DNA from: Chitinophagales bacterium | GTDB lineage: Bacteria; Bacteroidota; Bacteroidia; Chitinophagales; Chitinophagaceae | Direction of reading: 5' to 3' | DNA: 64,000 bases | NCBI GenBank assembly: GCA_017303395.1 | Contig: JAFLBN010000001.1 | Coordinates: forward strand, 1 to 64,000 | Shown: positions 3,661-19,018 of the stretch, in pieces | Numbering within the stretch: the first letter of the stretch is position 1 | How the letters are laid out: every line of letters begins with the position of its first letter | The notes under the pieces: generated by a model | Database searches by the model: none | What the model saw: only the letters and a program-made list of their open reading frames with translations | Told to the model about the DNA's origin: nothing | Program-made: the position numbers and the translations under genes

Positions 3661-3700
3661 ACGGCTACTAATAATTGTATATTATTGGTAGCCGTATTTT
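3661..3700 (+). terminator. Rho-independent terminator
   Basis: ACGGCTAC (3661-3668) pairs with GTAGCCGT (3688-3695), extended by TAATAAT/ATTATT, followed by ATTTTT. It ends the ELW-repeat gene and sits directly in front of the sigma factor start. Confidence 0.85.
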
Positions 3701-3701
3701 T

Positions 3702-4202
3702 ATGCAGTCAAATCTTCAACAGGCATTTGCAACACTGATACAGCAGCACGAAAAGCTGGTGTATAAAGTCTGCCATCTGTACGCGGCAGATGACGAGGAC
3801 ATTCGCGACCTGTTTCAGGAAATTGTATTGCAGGCATGGAATGGCTATGCCCGTTATCGTGGCGATGCTGCGGTAAGCACCTGGCTATACCGTGTGGCGC
3901 TGAATACGGCCATTACACACAAACGCAAACAGCGCAACGCCATTACCACTACCCCGCAACTACCTATCATAGACATAGCAGACGATGGACATGTACCGTA
4001 TGCAGAAGAATACCGCATTATGCACAAACTGATTGGCGAACTGCCACCGCTGGACAAGGCATTGGTGCTCCTGTACTTCGAAGACAGGACGCATGCTGAA
4101 ATTGCTGAGATCCTGGGCATCAGCACCAGCAACGTGGGCACTAAGCTAAACAGGATAAAAGACAGATTGCGGAAACAGGCACAACCATTGTTGAACAACT
4201 AA
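3702..4202 (+). CDS. ECF-type RNA polymerase sigma factor
   Basis: 166 residues. Region 2 covers about residues 10-75 (core motif DLFQEIVLQAW at 36-46, then WLYRVALNTA at 61-70) and region 4 covers about 112-160 with the helix-turn-helix HAEIAEILGISTSNVGTKLN. An in-frame ATG exists 24 nt upstream, but it falls inside the terminator hairpin of the previous gene, so I start at 3702 (MQSNLQQAF). The stop is 15 nt before a membrane protein gene, so the two probably form a sigma/regulator pair. The target regulon cannot be seen. Confidence 0.9.
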   Translation: MQSNLQQAFATLIQQHEKLVYKVCHLYAADDEDIRDLFQEIVLQAWNGYARYRGDAAVSTWLYRVALNTAITHKRKQRNAITTTPQLPIIDIADDGHVPYAEEYRIMHKLIGELPPLDKALVLLYFEDRTHAEIAEILGISTSNVGTKLNRIKDRLRKQAQPLLNN

Positions 4203-9070: not shown

Positions 9071-9260
9071 TAGTTGCGGTTGTTTGCCACTCGCATCCTA
9101 CAAATGTGGTCAATACCTTTCCCACAAGCAAGCAAAACCCATTGATTAACAGCCCGTTAGCGCGGCATTAACATCTCATTAAAAGCAATACCAATCAATA
9201 CTGGTTATCAGCCACTTGCGGCAAATTGCAGATATTTGTAAAAATTTTTCGGAAGGGCGT

Positions 9261-9287
9261 AGGGGTAATTGTTCTATAGGTTGTCAT
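9261..9287 (+). promoter_or_regulatory. Putative ECF-sigma promoter A (AGGGGTA-N13-TTGTCAT)
   Basis: AGGGGTA at 9261-9267 and TTGTCAT at 9281-9287, separated by 13 nt. The same two blocks with the same spacing occur before the genes at 12833 and 14177. Placed before the sigma gene, this suggests autoregulation. Confidence 0.7.
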
Positions 9288-9314
9288 ACTTGAAATGGCA
9301 ACGGCAGAAGCGGT

Positions 9315-9322
9315 TATCTTTG
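9315..9322 (+). promoter_or_regulatory. Putative -7 promoter box (TATCTTTG)
   Basis: TATCTTTG matches TAnnTTTG and lies 23 nt before the ATG at 9346. With promoter A it gives the sigma gene a possible second, housekeeping promoter and argues against the in-frame ATG at 9295, which would lie upstream of this transcript. Confidence 0.45.
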
Positions 9323-9345
9323 CACCCCGATACCACACAGGCTGC

Positions 9346-9915
9346 ATGGAACTAACGAGCGGTAATGCCACCGTAAGTATGGCAAGTACCGAAATATTGT
9401 TTGAAGAAGTGTTCAAGTCTCACTACAAGAGACTGCACGCCTACGCATGCACTATACTGAACGACGAAGACGATGCGGAGGAAATAGTGCAGAACGTGTT
9501 TGTAAAGCTGTGGGAAAAGAAAGAAAAGATACATGAACTGCAATCGCTGAATGCCTATCTGTACCGCGCTGTGTACAACGACTGCATCAATTTCGTGAAG
9601 CACGAAAAAGTAAAACAGTCGTACCGCAACTACGCTGTGCATACCAATAGCGAGATGGACAATAACAATACACAACGCAGCAAAGTGCTGCAACTGGAAG
9701 AAAGGCTGCGACAGGCATTGGCAGAACTGCCCGAGCAATGCCGCACTATTTTTCAGATGAGCAGATTTGAGGATATGAAGTACCGTGAGATAGCCGAGCA
9801 GTTGGGTTTGTCTGTAAAAACAGTAGAAAACCAGATGGGAAAGGCGCTGAAATTGATGAGGGTTAAACTGGCAGACTTGCTGCCTGTATTGTGGATTTTT
9901 TTGCTAAACATGTAA
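9346..9915 (+). CDS. ECF sigma factor, FecI-like
   Basis: 189 residues from the ATG at 9346. Region 2 (about 20-90) contains DAEEIVQNVFVKLWE at 43-57 and LNAYLYRAVYNDCINF; region 4 (about 128-170) contains LPEQCRTIFQMSRFEDMKY and the helix-turn-helix REIAEQLGLSVKTVENQMGK. An alternative start is the ATG at 9379 (MASTEILFEEVF), which is closer to the usual N-terminus of the family. It heads a cassette with FecR (9950) and an STN-domain protein (10917), 34 and 13 nt apart. I infer it recognises the shared motif upstream of itself, 12833 and 14177. Confidence 0.92.
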   Translation: MELTSGNATVSMASTEILFEEVFKSHYKRLHAYACTILNDEDDAEEIVQNVFVKLWEKKEKIHELQSLNAYLYRAVYNDCINFVKHEKVKQSYRNYAVHTNSEMDNNNTQRSKVLQLEERLRQALAELPEQCRTIFQMSRFEDMKYREIAEQLGLSVKTVENQMGKALKLMRVKLADLLPVLWIFLLNM

Positions 9916-9949
9916 CGATAACAAAACATTGAACACGAACAACAGCCAT

Positions 9950-10903
9950 ATGAACGATGACCTGCTGGTGAAATACCTGCTCGGCGAGGCTACGCCCGAA
10001 GAGCAGCAGCAAGTGCAGCAATGGGAGGCAGCCGATGCCGCCAATGCCAGGCACCTGCAACACCTGCACTATATATGGCAGGAAAGCAAAAAGCTGGAAG
10101 CAAAAAGCACGGTAGATGAAAATGCGGCGTGGGAACGCTTCAAGCAGCGGGTAGCAGCAAAACCTGCAACACCTAAAACCATACCACTGGGCAGACGCAC
10201 CAACTGGATGCGCGTTGCAGCAGCACTCATCATGATGGTGGGTGGCAGCTACACAGCCTACTATTACCTGTATAGCGGGCGCATGATAACATTGGAGTCT
10301 GATGGTGTAGTACTATCAGAAACACTGCCTGATGGCACTGTTGTAACACTGAATAAACATGCGTCTATCAAATATCCTAAAAACTTTAGTGGCGATACAA
10401 GAGAGGTAACGCTGGATGGTGAAGCTTTCTTCAACGTAACACCCAACAAGAGCAAACCATTCATCATACACGCCAACGAGGCCGATGTACAGGTGGTAGG
10501 TACTTCTTTCAACGTAAAGAGCAGCACTGCCGAAACAGAAGTAATTGTAGAAACAGGCGTAGTACAGGTTAGCAAAAAACAACTGGGCGTTATCCTGAAG
10601 CCGAAAGAAAAAGCAACAGTAAAGCAAAGCCTGGAACAGCCTGTGAAAGAACAGACAGACGATGAATTGCACAATTACTACCGTACCAAAGAGTTTGTGT
10701 GCAACAACACACCACTCAGCCGTCTGGTGCCTGTACTCAACGATGCGTATGATACCAATATTGTGATTGCCAATGACAAGCTGAACGACCTGCGCCTGAC
10801 CACCACATTCCACAACCAGTCGCTGGATGCCATAATAGACGTAATTGCCAATACATTCAACATAAGTGTAGAGAGAACAGACGGACAGATAGTTTTAAAA
10901 TAA
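9950..10903 (+). CDS. FecR-family anti-sigma/transmembrane regulator
   Basis: 317 residues. Cytoplasmic N-terminal helices (MNDDLLVKYLLGEATPEEQQ) bind sigma in this family; a single membrane helix spans about 86-107; the periplasmic FecR domain covers about 115-210 (LPDGTVVTLNKHASIKYP, REVTLDGEAFFNV, VGTSFNV); the C-terminal DUF4974-type domain covers about 240-317 and should contact an STN domain. I use the ATG at 9950; a TTG 21 nt upstream only adds residues unlike the family. Neighbours are the sigma gene upstream and an STN-domain protein downstream in one operon. Confidence 0.92.
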   Translation: MNDDLLVKYLLGEATPEEQQQVQQWEAADAANARHLQHLHYIWQESKKLEAKSTVDENAAWERFKQRVAAKPATPKTIPLGRRTNWMRVAAALIMMVGGSYTAYYYLYSGRMITLESDGVVLSETLPDGTVVTLNKHASIKYPKNFSGDTREVTLDGEAFFNVTPNKSKPFIIHANEADVQVVGTSFNVKSSTAETEVIVETGVVQVSKKQLGVILKPKEKATVKQSLEQPVKEQTDDELHNYYRTKEFVCNNTPLSRLVPVLNDAYDTNIVIANDKLNDLRLTTTFHNQSLDAIIDVIANTFNISVERTDGQIVLK

Positions 10904-10916
10904 GATTCACCCCCGC

Positions 10917-12764
10917 ATGAAGCCTTTATACAAGCTCACGCTCATTATATTATTCATTTCAGCGCCATTGCTTTCAATGGCGCAACAGTTTTTGAACAAA
11001 CAGGTAAGCATCAATGCAAAAAACAAACCTGTTGGCGAGGTATTGAAAACCATCAGCCGTCAGGGCGGTTTTTATTTTTCTTACAATAGCGAACTTATCA
11101 AAGACGATAGCCTTGTATCGGTATCTGCCAACAACAAAACCGTGAGGCAGGTATTGGGTATGCTCTTCGATAAAAACTTTGAATACACAGAAACCAAAAC
11201 ACACATCATCATACAGCCATCGGCAGCTATGTATTGGTATGCTACGGGCTATGTGAAAGATGAGCTGACCGGCGAAGGCATTGCCTATGCCAGCGTGTAC
11301 GAGAAGACACAGTTTGTAAGTACACTAACAAACGAAATCGGTTACTTCCGCCTGCGCCTGAAAGACAGGAACAAAGCTGCAACCATATCTGTTAGCAAAT
11401 CGTGGTATGCAGATACTGCTGTCGTAATATCCCCATCTGCTAAACAAGATGTAAAAGTGGGCATCAAACCCAAAAACTTCGAGCTGGATACATTTGTCGT
11501 AACCAAGAAAACAGGGCTGGAAGGCAATTGGCTGAGCCGCATGTTCCTTTCATCAAAGCAGCGTATGCAAGGCATGAACCTCGGCAAGTTCTTTGCAAAC
11601 AAACCCTACCAGACATCACTCATCCCCGGCCTCAGCACACACGGCAACATGAGCAGCCAGTCTGTCAACAAATTTTCATTCAATGTATTGGGCGGCTATA
11701 CGGGTGGCGTAAACGGTTTTGAGATGGCAGGCGTTTTCAACATCAACAAAACAGATGTTCGCGGTGCACAGATAGGTGGGTTATTCAACATGGCCGATGG
11801 CAAAGTAAGTGGCTTGCAGATAGCAGGGCTTTACAACCATGTGATGCACGCATCCGAAGGATGGCAGTTTGCAGGCTTTGCCAATCTGGTAAATGCAGAG
11901 CTTACGGGCATGCAGATAGGCGGTGCTTACAACCATGTGTGGGGCAATATTACAGGTGTGCAGATAGGCGGCTTTGCCAACCTTGCAAAAGGCGTAGTGG
12001 AAGGCGCGCAGATAAGCGGCGCATTTAACTATGCAGACAGTACCATAAACGGCACACAGATAGCAGGCTTTGTAAACGTAGCCATGGAAAAAACAGAAGG
12101 TGTGCAAATAGCAGGCTCTGCCAACTATGCCAATGACACACTTGACGGAACACAGATAGCAGGTTTTGTAAACGTAGCCCGCAAAGAAATGAAAGGCACA
12201 CAGGTATCAGGCTTTTTCAACTATGCCAAACATGTGAAAGGTGTGCAGGTAGGTGTCATCAATATTGCTGATACGTCTTCGGGCGTAAGTATTGGTTTTA
12301 TCAACTTCGTGGTAAAGGGCTATCACAAGCTTACCATATCATCCAACGAGTTTACGAATATCAATGTATCGGGCAAGCTGGGTACGCGCAATATGTACAC
12401 CATCGTTTCTTTCGGCATCAACGCAGGCAGTGGTATGGCTATAACTGCGGGCTATGGTTTAGGCAGACAGTTTAACATCAGTAAGCGTTTTTCCATCAAT
12501 CCCGAAGCAACCATCCATCAACTATACCTCGGCGATTTTGAATATACCAACGGCATATTCCGTTTCGACCTCGGGCTGAATTATAAATTCAACAAATACC
12601 TGTCTGCATTCGTGGCACCGTCCTACAGCTATTGTTACAAAGACCAGACAGATATACCCAACGGCTATCGCAGAGACATACCCAACATAGGCTTTGGCGG
12701 CACACAGCATAGCAAAGACTGGAGCAGTTGGGTTGGCTGGAGCGTGGGTGTAAATATCTTCTGA
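10917..12764 (+). CDS. STN-domain outer-membrane protein with surface repeats
   Basis: 615 residues. Order: signal peptide (1-22); STN domain about 27-100 (VSINAKNKPVGEVLKTISRQ, then GGFYFSYNSELI); carboxypeptidase-regulatory-like beta domain about 108-190 (GYVKDELTGEGIAYASVYE); linker; about 13 repeats of 20-22 residues with consensus GxQ[IV][AGS]G[FLA]xN (GAQIGGLFN, GVQIGGFAN, GTQIAGFVN) about 250-460; a C-terminal barrel-like region ending SVGVNIF. There is no TonB plug or TonB-dependent barrel. The STN domain is the part that signals to FecR in known systems, so this protein probably replaces the receptor as sensor. The repeats resemble those annotated in LA_2272-type surface-repeat proteins. 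Confidence 0.85.
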   Translation: MKPLYKLTLIILFISAPLLSMAQQFLNKQVSINAKNKPVGEVLKTISRQGGFYFSYNSELIKDDSLVSVSANNKTVRQVLGMLFDKNFEYTETKTHIIIQPSAAMYWYATGYVKDELTGEGIAYASVYEKTQFVSTLTNEIGYFRLRLKDRNKAATISVSKSWYADTAVVISPSAKQDVKVGIKPKNFELDTFVVTKKTGLEGNWLSRMFLSSKQRMQGMNLGKFFANKPYQTSLIPGLSTHGNMSSQSVNKFSFNVLGGYTGGVNGFEMAGVFNINKTDVRGAQIGGLFNMADGKVSGLQIAGLYNHVMHASEGWQFAGFANLVNAELTGMQIGGAYNHVWGNITGVQIGGFANLAKGVVEGAQISGAFNYADSTINGTQIAGFVNVAMEKTEGVQIAGSANYANDTLDGTQIAGFVNVARKEMKGTQVSGFFNYAKHVKGVQVGVINIADTSSGVSIGFINFVVKGYHKLTISSNEFTNINVSGKLGTRNMYTIVSFGINAGSGMAITAGYGLGRQFNISKRFSINPEATIHQLYLGDFEYTNGIFRFDLGLNYKFNKYLSAFVAPSYSYCYKDQTDIPNGYRRDIPNIGFGGTQHSKDWSSWVGWSVGVNIF

Positions 12765-12783
12765 TTTTTTTCTGAAAATACAT

Positions 12784-12810
12784 AGGGGTACAGTACACAC
12801 TCGTTGTCAT
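12784..12810 (+). promoter_or_regulatory. Putative ECF-sigma promoter B
   Basis: AGGGGTA (12784-12790), 13 nt, TTGTCAT (12804-12810), ending 22 nt before the ATG at 12833. Same blocks and spacing as promoters A and C. Confidence 0.75.
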
Positions 12811-12832
12811 ACTATCAAAAGAAGGAAAGTAT

Positions 12833-13954
12833 ATGACAACGAAGATAGCAGGGCTTTTAGCTGCCTTATTTTTATCATCAACTATCAACGCACAGCCTCG
12901 CAAATATGCGGCGGCACACATAGGCTTAGTATATCCGTTGAGCACAAACGGAGCTACAGCCAAAGAATACACCAATGGTTTTTCATTGCACGCAATAGGT
13001 GGCTTATCCTACAACGAAACATCCCTGTGTGCATCGGGCATCAGCAGCTATGTATTTCACAATGCAGATGGCATTATGCTGGCAGGCTTTTCCAACCACG
13101 TACGCAATGAAATGAACGGCGGACAGCTTGCGGGCTTTATGAACACCGTACGCCATAACACACGCGGCTTGCAGGCTGCTGGGTTTATGAATCTTTCAGG
13201 CAGCGTTAACGGTGCACAGCTTGGTGGTTTTGCCAATATCGTATTCGAATATTCAGAGGGCATGCAAAGCGCAGGTTTCATAAACCTCGCAGTGAAAGAT
13301 TTTCGTGGTATGCAGGTAGCAGGGTTTATGAACAGCGCCAACAATGTAGATGGCTTGCAGATGAGCGGTTTTATCAATCAGGCAAAAGATGCAAATGTAC
13401 AGATAGCGGGCTTCATCAATATTGCAAAAGAAGTACGTGGTGTACAGGTAGCGGGCTTCATCAATATTGCAGATAGTTGCGATTATCCCATTGCACCTAT
13501 CAACATATTGAAGAGAGGACAAAAATCTTTGGGTGTAACAGTGTATGACGGTACCACCACGATGGCTACATTCCGTTCAGGCGGCAGGGTAATGTACGGT
13601 GTTGTTGGTGCAGGTTATCACCACTATTCTAAAACACCACTGTATGCTGCAGAAGCTGGTTTAGGTGCACACATCAATATTGCAAAAGGCTTCAGGATAA
13701 ACCTGGAAGGGAGTGCTACCAGCTATACAGACTTTACAGACGAGATATATCTGAAATCATCATTCCGCATAATGCCTGCAGTAAGCTTTGGCAAAAAGCT
13801 GGAAATCTTTGCAGGGCCCAGCCTCAACCATGTAAATGGTGACGACCGCAATGGTGATGAGATAAGCAAAAACTATGTATGGAGCAATTACGACTGGGGG
13901 ACGTTCAACGGTTTATATTTCGGCTTCGTAGGTGGGCTGCACTATCATCTGTAA
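12833..13954 (+). CDS. Surface-repeat outer-membrane protein
   Basis: 373 residues. A signal peptide (MTTKIAGLLAALFLSSTINA) is followed by about nine copies of the same ~21-residue repeat as in the STN protein (GGQLAGFMN, GLQAAGFMN, GAQLGGFAN, GMQVAGFMN, GLQMSGFIN, GVQVAGFIN) at about 75-225, then a barrel-like C-terminal half with alternating strands, ending FVGGLHYHL. It looks like the repeat-plus-barrel part of the preceding protein without the STN and regulatory domains. It has its own copy of the shared sigma promoter (12784-12810). Ligand and function unknown. Confidence 0.8.
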   Translation: MTTKIAGLLAALFLSSTINAQPRKYAAAHIGLVYPLSTNGATAKEYTNGFSLHAIGGLSYNETSLCASGISSYVFHNADGIMLAGFSNHVRNEMNGGQLAGFMNTVRHNTRGLQAAGFMNLSGSVNGAQLGGFANIVFEYSEGMQSAGFINLAVKDFRGMQVAGFMNSANNVDGLQMSGFINQAKDANVQIAGFINIAKEVRGVQVAGFINIADSCDYPIAPINILKRGQKSLGVTVYDGTTTMATFRSGGRVMYGVVGAGYHHYSKTPLYAAEAGLGAHINIAKGFRINLEGSATSYTDFTDEIYLKSSFRIMPAVSFGKKLEIFAGPSLNHVNGDDRNGDEISKNYVWSNYDWGTFNGLYFGFVGGLHYHL

Positions 13955-14128
13955 TCAATATTTCTCTCCGACAGGTAACAGCCGCTTACCGATAAACTTA
14001 CAATACTCACCGATAGCGGGTTTCACGAAACACTTGTCTGCACTTGTTTTGCACCCGCAATCAGCTGAACGTATTATCAACAAAACGCATTAACAAAGCT
14101 TTAAGAAAACAAAAACACAACCACCCAT

Positions 14129-14155
14129 AGGGGTAAAACAATCACTCATTGTCAT
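14129..14155 (+). promoter_or_regulatory. Putative ECF-sigma promoter C
   Basis: AGGGGTA (14129-14135), 13 nt, TTGTCAT (14149-14155), ending 21 nt before the ATG of the TonB receptor. Third copy of the motif. Confidence 0.75.
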
Positions 14156-14176: not shown

Positions 14177-16588
14177 ATGTCACAGTTTAAGAATTGGATA
14201 TTAGCATCAGGACTGGCAATAGCTGCAAGCAACGCAACATATGCACAGGATGCTACATCCGCTACAGGAAAAACCACTACCATCACACAAAAAGTACACG
14301 GTATTGTTACAGATGCCGCATCAAAACAACCGCTGGCAGGTGTTGTAGTAGTCCTGAAGTCAAATACACAAATAAATACCGTAACAGACGAAACAGGTTC
14401 TTTCTCGCTGAGCAATGTACCAATAGGCCGTCAAACATTCATATTCAAACTGGTAGGCTTTGATGACTACACAGTAACAGAAGTACCCGTTATCAGCGGT
14501 AAAGAACTGGATCTGAGCGTATCTATGAACGAAAAGCTGACAAAGCTGGCAGACGTTGTAGTAAAAGCAGCAGGCAAAGACCGCATCAAACCAATGAATG
14601 AATTTGCTACCGTTAGTGCGCGTGCATTTTCTGTAGAGGAAACACGCCGTTATGCAGCCGCATTTGCAGACCCTGCACGTATGGTGCAAAACTTCCCTGG
14701 CGTTAGCAATGCGGGCGATATGGATAATAGCATCGTAGTACGTGGCAACTCTCCCAAAGGCGTGCTGTGGCGTATGGAAGGCATAGAAATACCAAACCCA
14801 AACCACTTTACATCGCAAGGTGCAAGCGGCGGGCCTATCAGCATGCTGAATGCAAATACGCTTGGCAATTCAGACTTCTACACAGGTGCTTTTGTACCAG
14901 AAATAGGCAATGCCCTTTCAGGAGCTTTCGACCTGAACCTGCGCACAGGTAACAACAAACGTGCAGAGCATACGGTGGCAATAGGCACGCTAGGCTTTGA
15001 ACTGGCAACAGAAGGCCCCTTCAGTAAAAACGGCAAAGGCTCCTACCTTATCAACTACCGCTACTCTAGCCTGGCACTGCTTACCAAAGTAATAGACCTT
15101 GGCGTGGGTACATCTATACCAAGCTATCAGGATGGTTCTTTCAAAGTAAATCTGCCTACAAAAAAATCGGGTACGTTTACCATTTGGGGATTGGGTGGCT
15201 ATAATGTTGCAGCCAGCAACCCCGAAAAAGACAGCAGCAAATGGGATGACGACCACCTGAATATAAAATATGACAGCAGAAACCACATGTACACAGGTGG
15301 CATATCTCATCAATACTTCATCAACAAAGACGGTTATATAAAAACCATCATCGCAGCATCGCAAGACAAAGCAGGCAATGATGCCGATACACTAAACCCA
15401 GGCAATAACTACGAACGTGTTGCAGTACAAAAAAGCAGCATCACCAACAACGCAATACGCGCATCTGTAATGTATAACCAAAAGCTGAATGCACAGCATA
15501 CATTTCGTGCAGGTGTTGTAGGCCAGTACTGGTCTTACAATATGAACCAACGCTACTTCGACCTGCCTGAAAACAGATGGAAAAACATGCTGGAAGGCGA
15601 AGGCAATACACAGTTCTACCAAGGATATATACAATGGAAAACACGCCTGTCTCAACGCCTGAGTGTAATAGGTGGCGTGCATGGCTCTTATCTGGCACTG
15701 AATGGCAAATCGAGCGTAGAACCACGTGCATCTGTTACCTATCAGGCAAATAAAAACAAAGTAACACTGGCGGCAGGACTGCATTCTAAACCAGAGCACT
15801 TATCTACATACCTGTTTCAGAATACAGACCTCGGCAACACGGTAACACACCCCAACAAAAACCTCGACCTGCAACGTGCCTTTCACGGAGTACTGGGCTA
15901 TGAAACAAGCCTGCCACTACGCACAAAGCTGAAGGTAGAGCTGTACTATCAGCACCTGTATAACATTCCTGTAGAGCAAGACAGCACAACAGGCTTCTCT
16001 ATCATCAATGCGCTGGATGTGTACTCTTTGCTGAATACAAAGCCATTGGTTAGCAAAGGCACAGGCACCAACTATGGTGTAGATATCAGCATAGAGCGTC
16101 CGTTTGCAAATAATTTTTATGTGTTGGCTACGGGGTCAATTTTCAAAAGTACTTACAAAGACTATGGGGGTAAAGAATACAATACGCGTTTTAACAGAGG
16201 ATATACGTTCAATATGGTTGGCGGAAAGGAATTTAAGCTGAACAGCAGCGGAAGGAAAATAATAGGTTTGAATGGTAAAGTACTGACAAACGGCGGTTCC
16301 AGAGAATCTGTGATAGACATGGCTTTATCTAAAGCTACAGGCAGAGAAGAATATGTACAAGGACAGTACTTCACCAAACAGGTTCCTGCATATTTCCGTG
16401 TGGACTTTGGTGTGTACTACAAGAAAAATAATAAGCGCGCAACACACACTATACAACTCGACTTGCAAAACATCACAGACCGCAGAAACTTCTTTTTCTC
16501 TTATTACGATTACAAATCGCAAACCGTTAAAACCGTTAACCAGACAGGCTTATTTCCAAACCTTAGCTACCGTGTAGAATTTCATTAA
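14177..16588 (+). CDS. TonB-dependent receptor with carboxypeptidase-like N-terminal domain
   Basis: 803 residues. Signal peptide (1-24, ending NATYAQ); carboxypeptidase-regulatory-like domain about 37-125 (GIVTDAASKQPLAGVVVVLK, GSFSLSNVPIG); plug about 150-290 (MVQNFPGVSNAGDMDNSIVV, RGNSPKGVLWRMEGIEIPN); beta-barrel to the C-terminus, ending LSYRVEFH. TonB-dependent receptors import large substrates across the outer membrane using proton-motive energy. It has no STN domain, so it cannot itself signal to FecR in the usual way. Expression probably depends on the sigma factor at 9346 through promoter C. Substrate unknown; no SusD partner is present. Confidence 0.9.
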   Translation: MSQFKNWILASGLAIAASNATYAQDATSATGKTTTITQKVHGIVTDAASKQPLAGVVVVLKSNTQINTVTDETGSFSLSNVPIGRQTFIFKLVGFDDYTVTEVPVISGKELDLSVSMNEKLTKLADVVVKAAGKDRIKPMNEFATVSARAFSVEETRRYAAAFADPARMVQNFPGVSNAGDMDNSIVVRGNSPKGVLWRMEGIEIPNPNHFTSQGASGGPISMLNANTLGNSDFYTGAFVPEIGNALSGAFDLNLRTGNNKRAEHTVAIGTLGFELATEGPFSKNGKGSYLINYRYSSLALLTKVIDLGVGTSIPSYQDGSFKVNLPTKKSGTFTIWGLGGYNVAASNPEKDSSKWDDDHLNIKYDSRNHMYTGGISHQYFINKDGYIKTIIAASQDKAGNDADTLNPGNNYERVAVQKSSITNNAIRASVMYNQKLNAQHTFRAGVVGQYWSYNMNQRYFDLPENRWKNMLEGEGNTQFYQGYIQWKTRLSQRLSVIGGVHGSYLALNGKSSVEPRASVTYQANKNKVTLAAGLHSKPEHLSTYLFQNTDLGNTVTHPNKNLDLQRAFHGVLGYETSLPLRTKLKVELYYQHLYNIPVEQDSTTGFSIINALDVYSLLNTKPLVSKGTGTNYGVDISIERPFANNFYVLATGSIFKSTYKDYGGKEYNTRFNRGYTFNMVGGKEFKLNSSGRKIIGLNGKVLTNGGSRESVIDMALSKATGREEYVQGQYFTKQVPAYFRVDFGVYYKKNNKRATHTIQLDLQNITDRRNFFFSYYDYKSQTVKTVNQTGLFPNLSYRVEFH

Positions 16589-16636: not shown

Positions 16637-17293
16637 ATGAAAAACTTATTTGTATTTGCCGCACTATCTGTACTCACATTTACATCTTGCAGCAAGCACC
16701 GTTTGAAAGGTGAAGGCTCTATAGTGAGCGAAACACGCAGTGTATCAGGTTTCTCAAACATCAGCCTGAATGGCAGCGAAGACGTTGAAATCATCCCTTC
16801 AAAAGAAAATAAAGTAATAGTAAGCGGTTATCAGAATCTGGTACCATCTTACAAAACAAAAGTATCGGGCAGCACACTGAATCTGGAGTTTGAAAGAAAC
16901 TATTACAATGTTCGCAACAACAACATCAAAGTAACCATCTATACTACAGGCATTTCTAAAATAGAAATGAACGGTTCGGGCAATATATCATTGAGAGACA
17001 GCCTGAAAACAGACAGGCTGCGTATGGAAATAAACGGTTCGGGAAACATCTATACATACAACAACTATATAGAGAATGTAGAGCTTGATATCAACGGTTC
17101 GGGCAACATCAATGCACGCAACACAACAGGCCGTTATGTATATGCAGAAATCTCAGGTTCGGGAGATATAGAAATAACAGCTCAGGAAAAACTGGAAGCA
17201 AAAATATCAGGCTCAGGCGAAATAAAATATTGGGGTAATCCTTCTACAGTCAATACCGACGTTTCAGGTTCGGGCAAAGTAAGGAAACAATAA
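16637..17293 (+). CDS. Lipoprotein with head GIN domain (DUF2807)
   Basis: 218 residues. Lipobox TFTSC (Cys at about 19) followed by a beta-helix of short repeats with the signature [NS]GSG[ND]I (MNGSGNISLRDS, INGSGNIYTYN, INGSGNINARN, ISGSGDIEIT, ISGSGEIKYW, VSGSGKV). This is the 'putative auto-transporter adhesin head GIN domain' family, mostly outer-membrane lipoproteins of unknown role. It lies 48 nt after the TonB receptor stop with no terminator between, so it is probably in the same sigma-driven unit. Confidence 0.9.
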   Translation: MKNLFVFAALSVLTFTSCSKHRLKGEGSIVSETRSVSGFSNISLNGSEDVEIIPSKENKVIVSGYQNLVPSYKTKVSGSTLNLEFERNYYNVRNNNIKVTIYTTGISKIEMNGSGNISLRDSLKTDRLRMEINGSGNIYTYNNYIENVELDINGSGNINARNTTGRYVYAEISGSGDIEITAQEKLEAKISGSGEIKYWGNPSTVNTDVSGSGKVRKQ

Positions 17294-17319: not shown

Positions 17320-17365
17320 ATAACCAACCGGCGCCATACGGCAATCATGGTGCCAGGTTGGTTAT
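17320..17365. terminator. Bidirectional terminator hairpin
   Basis: ATAACCAACC...GGCGCCA and TGGTGCC..GGTTGGTTAT form a long stem followed by TATTTTTG. It lies between convergent genes and covers the stop codon of the histidine kinase. Confidence 0.75.
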
Positions 17366-19018
17366 TATTTTTGTATAAAGTAGTTCGGGGTCAAATGGCT
17401 TTGTGATGAAATCGTTCATCCCTACTTCTTTGGCACGTGTACGTGCTTCATCATACGCATCGGCAGTAAAGGCTATTACAGGTGTCACCTTATCATACTC
17501 ACGCAGTTTTGTAGTAGCCTGATAACCATCCATTATCGGCATATGCAAATCCATCAGTACAATATCATATTGCTTGTTCCGCATCATATCCAGTGCCTCT
17601 GCACCATGCTTGGCAATATCTACAGATGCTTTCAGGTTTTCCAGTATTTTTCTGGCCACAAGGATGTTTAGTTTATTATCCTCTACCAGCAGCACTTTCA
17701 CGCCCGACAGGTCGTGCGTTTCTATAAAGCGTTGTTCTGCATCTTTTATTTCGGTTGTCAGCCCCAGTGCTACTTCAAAAAAGAATGTTGCACCTACCCC
17801 AACTTCACTATCTACATGCAGTGTAGTCTTCATCAGCTTCAGCAATCTTTTAGATATTGCAAGCCCCAGCCCCATACCATCGTAACTGCGTGTTATGCTG
17901 CTATCCAGTTGATTGAACACATCGAAGATATTCTGCAAACGCTCGCTGCTGATGCCGATACCTGTATCTGCTACTTTGAATGTGATGTAGCATTTTTTAT
18001 CATCAGCATGGTTCATTTTCACTAAGAGAAATACTTCCCCCTTCTTCGTGAATTTGATGGCATTGCTCAGCAGATTGTGCAATACCAAGACAAGCTTTTC
18101 ATAATCGCCCAACACAAACTGTGGTATGCGGTCGTCGAAGTCAAAGCGTAGTTCTATATTTTTCTTAGCTGCTTCCAGTACAAAACTATCTACCGCATTG
18201 TGGCATAGTTTGCGGATGTCAAACGGGCGTTCGTCTATATCTACTTTGCCCGTTTCCAGTACGTTATAATACAGCACATTATCTATCAGCGATTTCAGTT
18301 GTTGTGCAGAATAGTGCAGTATCTGCACATCCCGATTCAGTGCATCGGGCACACCTTTTTCTTTCAGCAGATGTGTCATGCCCAATATACCATTGGCAGG
18401 TGTGCGTATCTCGTGGCTCATGATGGAAAGGAACCGGTTCTTTTCCTTCAGCGATTGCTCTGCCGTTTCTTTGGCATCGGCAAGTGCTTCTTCCATCTTA
18501 TAGTTATTGCGCGCTACGGTACGTACCAGCAGCAAGCTGCAAATGATTGCCACAATCAGGTGAAACGCACGCATTGCCATGACTACAGATTCGCCTCCGT
18601 AATAGGCCATACCCAATCTGGGGGTCAGTTCTGTAAAATTGACTAATACCAGACACAGCAGTGTAAAGCCGATTACAATCGCTCTCAGTGCCTTGTCTTT
18701 ATACTCGGTTACCACATAGCTAAACATCAGCAAGGGCAAATACATGACCACCGCGTTGTTATGATTATCTCTGTAGCCGGCATCAAATATCAGCACCAGC
18801 ATATCGCTGTATAATATGCTAAGTATGCCTACCGCTTTTATCCGGTTTCTGCTTATCAGGTACAGATTGAACCCGAATGCAAGTGCCGCCAACGCAAAGT
18901 ATATAGCATGCGCATCTTTATCTACTATATAGTAGATGTACGAGAAGAAGGTAATTGAGACGAGAACAGCTATAATGTTGAGGTGCAACAGTATTCTGCT
19001 CTGCTTATTATTTTTCAT
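17345..19018 (-). CDS. Hybrid sensor histidine kinase
   Basis: 557 residues. Five to six membrane helices (about 10-168); HisKA domain with phospho-acceptor H202 in SIMSHEIRTPANGILGM; HATPase domain about 305-415 (N box LHNLLSNAIKFT around N318, D351 in ADTGIGIS, G box GMGLGLA at 381-387); receiver domain about 440-555 (E446-D447, phospho-acceptor D490 in IVLMDLHMPIMDG, K540). There is no periplasmic sensor domain, so the membrane region itself probably senses the signal. No DNA-binding output is attached and no partner regulator is adjacent. Confidence 0.92.
   Translation of the reverse strand: MKNNKQSRILLHLNIIAVLVSITFFSYIYYIVDKDAHAIYFALAALAFGFNLYLISRNRIKAVGILSILYSDMLVLIFDAGYRDNHNNAVVMYLPLLMFSYVVTEYKDKALRAIVIGFTLLCLVLVNFTELTPRLGMAYYGGESVVMAMRAFHLIVAIICSLLLVRTVARNNYKMEEALADAKETAEQSLKEKNRFLSIMSHEIRTPANGILGMTHLLKEKGVPDALNRDVQILHYSAQQLKSLIDNVLYYNVLETGKVDIDERPFDIRKLCHNAVDSFVLEAAKKNIELRFDFDDRIPQFVLGDYEKLVLVLHNLLSNAIKFTKKGEVFLLVKMNHADDKKCYITFKVADTGIGISSERLQNIFDVFNQLDSSITRSYDGMGLGLAISKRLLKLMKTTLHVDSEVGVGATFFFEVALGLTTEIKDAEQRFIETHDLSGVKVLLVEDNKLNILVARKILENLKASVDIAKHGAEALDMMRNKQYDIVLMDLHMPIMDGYQATTKLREYDKVTPVIAFTADAYDEARTRAKEVGMNDFITKPFDPELLYTKIITNLAP

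Follow-up and report, generated by a model that had tools for sequence, protein, structure and literature searches.

FecI-like extracytoplasmic function (ECF) sigma factors are common in Bacteroidota, where they form pairs with FecR-type proteins that we take to be the old group ECF10; the usual partners of such pairs are SusC/SusD-type receptors. Here we describe a locus related to these pairs in the first 64,000 nucleotides (the window) of contig JAFLBN010000001.1 from a Chitinophagales bacterium (GCA_017303395.1), in which three copies of the two-block site AGGGGTA-N13-TTGTCAT precede genes of a cluster headed by an ECF sigma gene. In the FecI/FecR/FecA system of Escherichia coli, FecR controls the sigma factor and a signalling domain at the outer membrane acts on FecR (PMC9249621, complemented by general background); for this source and for the two others cited below, our statements refer to the available parts of their text. 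In the same source, the E. coli fecIR genes are described as not autoregulated (PMC9249621). Two ECF regulons are also described in Bacteroidota. The SM6 promoters of Flavobacterium psychrophilum form a class attributed to ECF sigma factors, whose regulon includes its own sigma/anti-sigma pair as well as components of the type IX secretion system (T9SS) (PMC9723704), and SigP of Porphyromonas gingivalis belongs to the two-component cascade PorY-PorX-SigP, with T9SS targets (PMC4800418).

The locus described here resembles the E. coli system by its combination of an ECF sigma factor, a FecR anti-sigma factor and a periplasmic signalling domain with predicted sigma-dependent promoters of surface genes. 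It differs from it in that the signalling domain (STN) is carried by an LA_2272-repeat protein and not by a TonB receptor, and in that the sigma gene has a site of its own and appears to be autoregulated, unlike fecIR in the available text of PMC9249621. The TIGR02985 sigma family and a FecR protein with a FecR_C domain are shared with the FecI-like pairs of Bacteroidota, whereas the predicted targets, LA_2272-type repeat and GIN proteins behind a conserved promoter present at several sites, set the locus apart from them. The SM6 promoters have CGT in their -10 element, the only one compared, instead of TTGTC, and the control by a two-component cascade described for SigP is replaced here by FecR/STN. 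The parts are of known kinds, and what varies is their arrangement, with STN on a surface-repeat protein, a predicted autoregulated sigma factor, targets of the repeat and GIN types, and a promoter that is both private and conserved. In literature searches with limited coverage of subscription journals, the matches listed contained no description of a promoter consensus for this sigma clade or of this regulon, and LA_2272 did not occur among the matches listed in the literature search. The locus provides a private consensus with 14 fixed letters that accompanies one sigma/FecR/STN clade across several genera and makes the regulon directly recognizable in genome sequences. It also connects LA_2272-repeat and GIN proteins, which otherwise lack an explanation, with a defined signalling system, and points to an STN transducer other than a TonB receptor.

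Two-block sites in the window and its genome

We estimate at about 0.92 the probability that the sites are -35/-10 promoters read by the sigma factor encoded at 9346-9915, under FecR/STN control, in a circuit combining self-activation with the activation of surface genes. The genes and predicted promoters of the cluster are the following:

9260..9287, + strand: P1, TAGGGGTA-N13-TTGTCAT, predicted ECF-type promoter of the sigma-fecR-STN operon (exact match)
9346..9915, + strand: ECF sigma factor of the Sig70_bacteroi1 family (TIGR02985, 180.1 bits, cut-off 126.4)
9950..10903, + strand: FecR-type anti-sigma factor with FecR_C (PF04773, 60.2 bits; PF16344, 46.5 bits)
10917..12764, + strand: STN - CarbopepD_reg_2 - LA_2272 surface-repeat protein, hereafter the STN protein (PF07660; PF13715; NF047436, 47 bits)
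12783..12810, + strand: predicted promoter of the surface-repeat gene (exact match; 22 nt from the -10 block to the ATG)
12833..13954, + strand: repeat protein with a G-Q-AGF-N repeat akin to that of the STN protein (repeat similarity)
14128..14155, + strand: predicted promoter of the receptor-GIN pair (exact match; 21 nt from the -10 block to the ATG)
14177..16588, + strand: TonB-receptor-like protein with CarboxypepD_reg (PF13620, 57.8 bits)
16637..17293, + strand: GIN-domain (DUF2807) protein (PF10988, 120.6 bits)

The three copies of AGGGGTA-N13-TTGTCAT are exact and lie on the + strand (9261-9287, 12784-12810 and 14129-14155). As the initial annotation had described, both blocks and the 13-nt length of the spacer are constant while the letters of the spacer differ. 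The conserved first block is one base longer than had been noted, a T preceding all three copies (TAGGGGTA), and two of the three sites share ACT after the second block. A scan of the whole genome (44 contigs, 3,760,363 bases) recovered only these three exact matches, all within 5 kb, so that the motif is not one that occurs frequently at random positions. The single match with exactly one mismatch (C44:108464) is located in the 3′-terminal part of a same-strand open reading frame (ORF) that has no member of the gene set in its vicinity; this ORF resembles the end of a SecA-type gene (SEC-C motif). With up to two mismatches, 28 matches were obtained versus 35 for the reversed control pattern, i.e., the background level, and a wider regulon in this genome was rejected on this basis.

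Sites in related genomes

The exact pattern was found at 44 positions in 30 of 294 genomes of the same family, compared with seven for the reversed control. Of the 30 genomes with the motif, 29 encode an STN-repeat relative (E at most 1e-20), compared with 105 of the 294 genomes overall. Most sites (38 of 44) adjoin genes of the set, including four from genus g86 that have only a receptor relative with 24-27% identity as neighbour; the surroundings of one further site (G002:C40:280455) fell outside the neighbour count. All five sampled genomes of the source genus contain a match, the one in G221 not lying beside the system. When the spacer was allowed to vary from 7 to 21, 40 of the 64 matches had N13 and the other 24 were scattered over 14 spacings, with at most four each. 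In one genome of the scan (G195; L057 / L088), the exact motif has a paralogous pair of sigma and FecR genes (34% and 32% identity) in its vicinity and no STN-repeat protein is encoded; this site could be a chance occurrence as well as part of a related regulon.

A second set of loci was selected by a profile of the STN-repeat protein, without using the motif. These 80 named loci were the top-ranking ones of 252, with Chitinophaga, Taibaiella, Dyadobacter, Pedobacter and Flavobacterium cerinum among the taxa represented; close relatives were kept and some genomes are shared with the family scan. They were searched with TAGGGGTA-N13-TTGTC-N-T, using 100 letter permutations as a control. Exact sites numbered 55 versus none in the permutations, sites with at most one mismatch 108 (permuted mean 0.52, maximum 6) and sites with at most two mismatches 142 (permuted mean 9.23, maximum 22). 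At least one site is present in 58 of the 80 loci with at most one mismatch and in 71 with at most two. Among spacers of 7-21, N13 accounts for 108 sites and any other length for at most eight. The 142 sites precede the sigma gene (58), the repeat gene (36), the TonB-receptor-like gene (23), the GIN gene (13), the STN-repeat gene (2) or other genes (2), the remainder being distant from any gene start (4) or oriented in the opposite direction (4). The initial annotation had called for a comparison with related genomes, and the enrichment before the same small set of genes was found there; the composition that it had proposed for the regulon (sigma operon, repeat protein, receptor with its GIN protein) is in line with the genes that the sites precede in relatives.

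ECF promoters are characterized by two conserved blocks, a fixed spacer, a G-rich -35 element and GTC in the -10 element. These features are recognizable in the sites, with N13 as the dominant spacer and, among 111 sites preselected at no more than two mismatches, GGG (positions 4-6) and GT (24-25) invariant and C at position 26 in 101. Between the end of the -10 block and the first in-frame ATG, the median distance is 20 nt for the repeat gene (33 sites) and 21 nt for the receptor-like gene (18 sites), which fits a transcription start a few nucleotides past the -10 block. The comparison thus strongly supports the reading of the two-block sites as candidate -35/-10 pairs of a regulon of the linked ECF sigma factor.

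We consider it very improbable that the sites are operators of another transcription factor, an activator or repressor that would co-regulate the cluster, rather than core promoters. A dimeric regulator could be accommodated by two blocks whose centres lie about 20 bp from one another, but the blocks are neither palindromic nor repeats of each other, 107 of the 108 sites with at most one mismatch run in the direction of the operon, the second block lies close before the starts of the repeat and receptor-like genes, and the sites track the sigma gene (see below).

The placement of the sites also bears on their origin. In six Pedobacter loci, a single site precedes the repeat gene, and the sigma, fecR and STN-repeat genes lie further downstream on the same strand. 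Elsewhere, the sigma site is separated by 0.98 Mb (G226) or 0.67 Mb (G102) from a repeat gene that has its own site, and by 1.49 Mb in G085 from a site-bearing receptor relative. Local duplication therefore does not explain the sites. The preceding T common to the three window sites, and the ACT shared by two of them, could be read as traces of a duplicated segment, or the three copies as a product of chance; the probability of such an origin is close to negligible, the spacers being different, the three exact sites within 5 kb having no counterpart elsewhere in the genome, and the placement recurring in many of the named loci, with the single copy of Pedobacter among them.

Coupling of the sites to the sigma gene

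A sigma gene was detected in 69 loci. All but one of these (68) contain a site when up to two mismatches are allowed, and 55 still do when only one is. Eleven loci have no detected sigma gene, and the eight full-length ones among these have no site; full-length means that some 8 kb flank the STN gene in either direction, and the absence of a sigma gene was judged within this stretch. From this co-occurrence, together with the conservation, position, orientation, spacing and genome-wide rarity of the sites, we infer that they are directly recognized by this sigma factor. Its use of the three sites, which had been deduced from linkage, gains support from the co-occurrence, from the distant targets and from -10 variants shared within loci, and the same predicted wiring recurs in many related bacteria.

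These variants were analysed in 111 sites from 44 loci that have two or more sites each. In the 28-mer, T1, G4-G6, G24 and T25 are invariant, and sites of the same locus agree above the shuffled level at positions 3, 22, 26 and 27 (reached by none of 500 shuffles), the kinship of the loci being uncontrolled. For example, the three one-mismatch sites of L065 all end in TTGTCTT and both sites of L114, as well as both sites of L115, have TTGTTAT; L095 shows a mixture over its four sites (one TTGTCTT, two TTGTCCT and one TTGTCCC). Such agreement fits a single reader per genome. A mutual-information analysis without a tree (56 sequences), which ranked sigma residues 81, 77 and 59 first for positions 22, 26 and 27, was dropped as evidence of coevolution because the co-changes obtained with a tree-aware method (72 sequences) were weak and scattered.

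It is quite improbable that the sites are genuine ECF promoters read by another ECF sigma factor of the genome, or by several with overlapping specificity. The Sig70_bacteroi1 model has 19 matches in this genome, two of them over the cut-off, along with two FecR genes, and an overlap between ECF regulons has been proposed for F. psychrophilum (PMC9723704, available text). On the other hand, the coordinates show that the 400 bp upstream of each of the other 18 sigma-family matches contain no site in the orientation of that match, even when two mismatches are allowed, and the presence and absence of the sites follow this particular sigma gene in the loci described above.

Several observations weigh against a promoter specific to this sigma factor. 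Five of the 44 exact sites in the family genomes are not beside the system (G185, G132, G277, G221 and G195), and a phylum scan outside the source genome gave 13 sites versus 12 for the reversed control, six adjoining relatives of the sigma or of the STN/repeat genes (L118, L121, L122, L125, L130 and L131) and seven not. In the sigma and GIN genes, the first in-frame ATG lies further from the site and at less uniform distances (medians of 60 nt for 43 sites and 58.5 nt for 12 sites, with one GIN value of 493). L186 has a sigma gene and no site at up to two mismatches, while L144, L154 and L185 have a site and no detected sigma gene; two of these loci, L144 and L185, come from short records, and the third, L154, yielded no recognizable sigma ORF. 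In L109, on a contig of the same length as that of L154, tblastn matched the sigma sequence, yet no sigma ORF was recognized; the sigma reading frame may be interrupted in both. Finally, the tree-aware test (72 sequences, 129 columns) detected no convincing sigma residue co-changing with the -10 letters: the best uncorrected p values were 0.016, 0.0018 and 0.005 for positions 22, 26 and 27, with scattered top columns, and a stronger value (1.6e-4) was obtained for spacer position 19.

With the sites taken as promoters of this sigma factor, the circuit can be outlined as follows. The sigma factor would be held by the membrane anti-sigma factor FecR. The STN-LA_2272 protein, probably located in the outer membrane with its STN domain in the periplasm, would sense a surface condition and relieve FecR, the STN-repeat protein being the putative transducer of this signal path. 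The freed sigma factor would fire its own operon, in a likely positive feedback, and also the surface-repeat gene and the TonB-receptor-like/GIN pair. The presence of the G-Q-AGF-N repeat in both the sensor and the regulated repeat protein raises the idea that the STN protein senses the assembly or amount of its own regulated repeat product, the whole forming a TonB-independent, self-measuring surface-coat circuit and not a nutrient-uptake switch; we regard this idea as doubtful.

Eight STN-repeat relatives, seven from Chitinophaga (L148, L151, L155, L161, L173, L192 and L197) and one from a Flavihumibacter metagenome-assembled genome (MAG; L150), have neither a sigma/FecR neighbour nor a site; these copies are apparently orphan or re-wired. 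In addition, a contig labelled as an Azovibrio restrictus MAG (L142, JANLJF010000013.1) carries this Bacteroidota operon, probably as the result of a binning error.

The sigma leader and the proteins of the cluster

The leader of the sigma gene contains a second element:

9315..9322, + strand: TATCTTTG in the sigma leader, matching the primary-sigma -7 box TAnnTTTG (leader comparison)

Of 86 sigma leaders, 63 contain the TAnnTTTG sequence, described as the -7 consensus of the primary sigma factor of Bacteroidota (PMC9723704, available text); letter shuffling gave a mean of 1.9 and a maximum of 7. With the start codon as the only anchor, 32 of 59 non-redundant leaders have the sequence at one and the same position, 23 nt ahead of that codon. 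The TATCTTTG element is likely a basal promoter that would supply sigma factor and FecR before induction. Alternatively, it could possibly be part of a conserved coding N-terminal extension (EA.IF) read from an alternative in-frame start at 9295. The extension is favoured by the stop codons located between box and start codon in 35 non-redundant leaders, of which the sigma frame has none and the other frames five and eleven, and by the frequent retention of the frame in leaders without the box. It is disfavoured by L066 and L104, which keep the element without an ATG, GTG or TTG start, and by L067, where it lies in another frame. Moreover, with the same start-codon anchor, the place of the Phe codon is occupied by TTT in 39 of 59 leaders and by TTC in none, so that the letters themselves look constrained and not the residue alone.

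The order of the genes (sigma, FecR, STN protein, repeat protein, receptor-like protein, GIN protein) is that of the initial annotation. Regions 2 and 4 of the sigma protein are matched by PF04542 and PF08281, and fecR follows the sigma gene in the gene maps of related loci as well. In 35 aligned members of the STN protein family, STN is detected in 33 and CarbopepD_reg_2 in all 35, and none matches a Plug or receptor-barrel model at E 0.001; a sequence search against the PDB matched only the CarboxypepD part of two receptors. The repeat protein (12833..13954) has no Pfam or NCBIfam family at E 0.001 and weak PDB matches (best E 0.0077); its 'surface-repeat' label is owed to repeats that resemble those of the STN protein, both queries being matched by relatives. 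The label of TonB receptor given to the protein encoded at 14177..16588 stands in part: CarboxypepD_reg was found, but Plug scored 19.6 bits, under the cut-off of 23.9, which makes the label weak. Domain scans detected no STN in this protein, and the PDB sequence search gave no match.

The window contains a second ECF sigma gene (3675-4202; Sigma70_r2, r4_2), with no exact site upstream. Directly downstream of the putative regulon, on the opposite strand (17345-19018, - strand), lies a gene encoding a histidine kinase with a C-terminal receiver domain.

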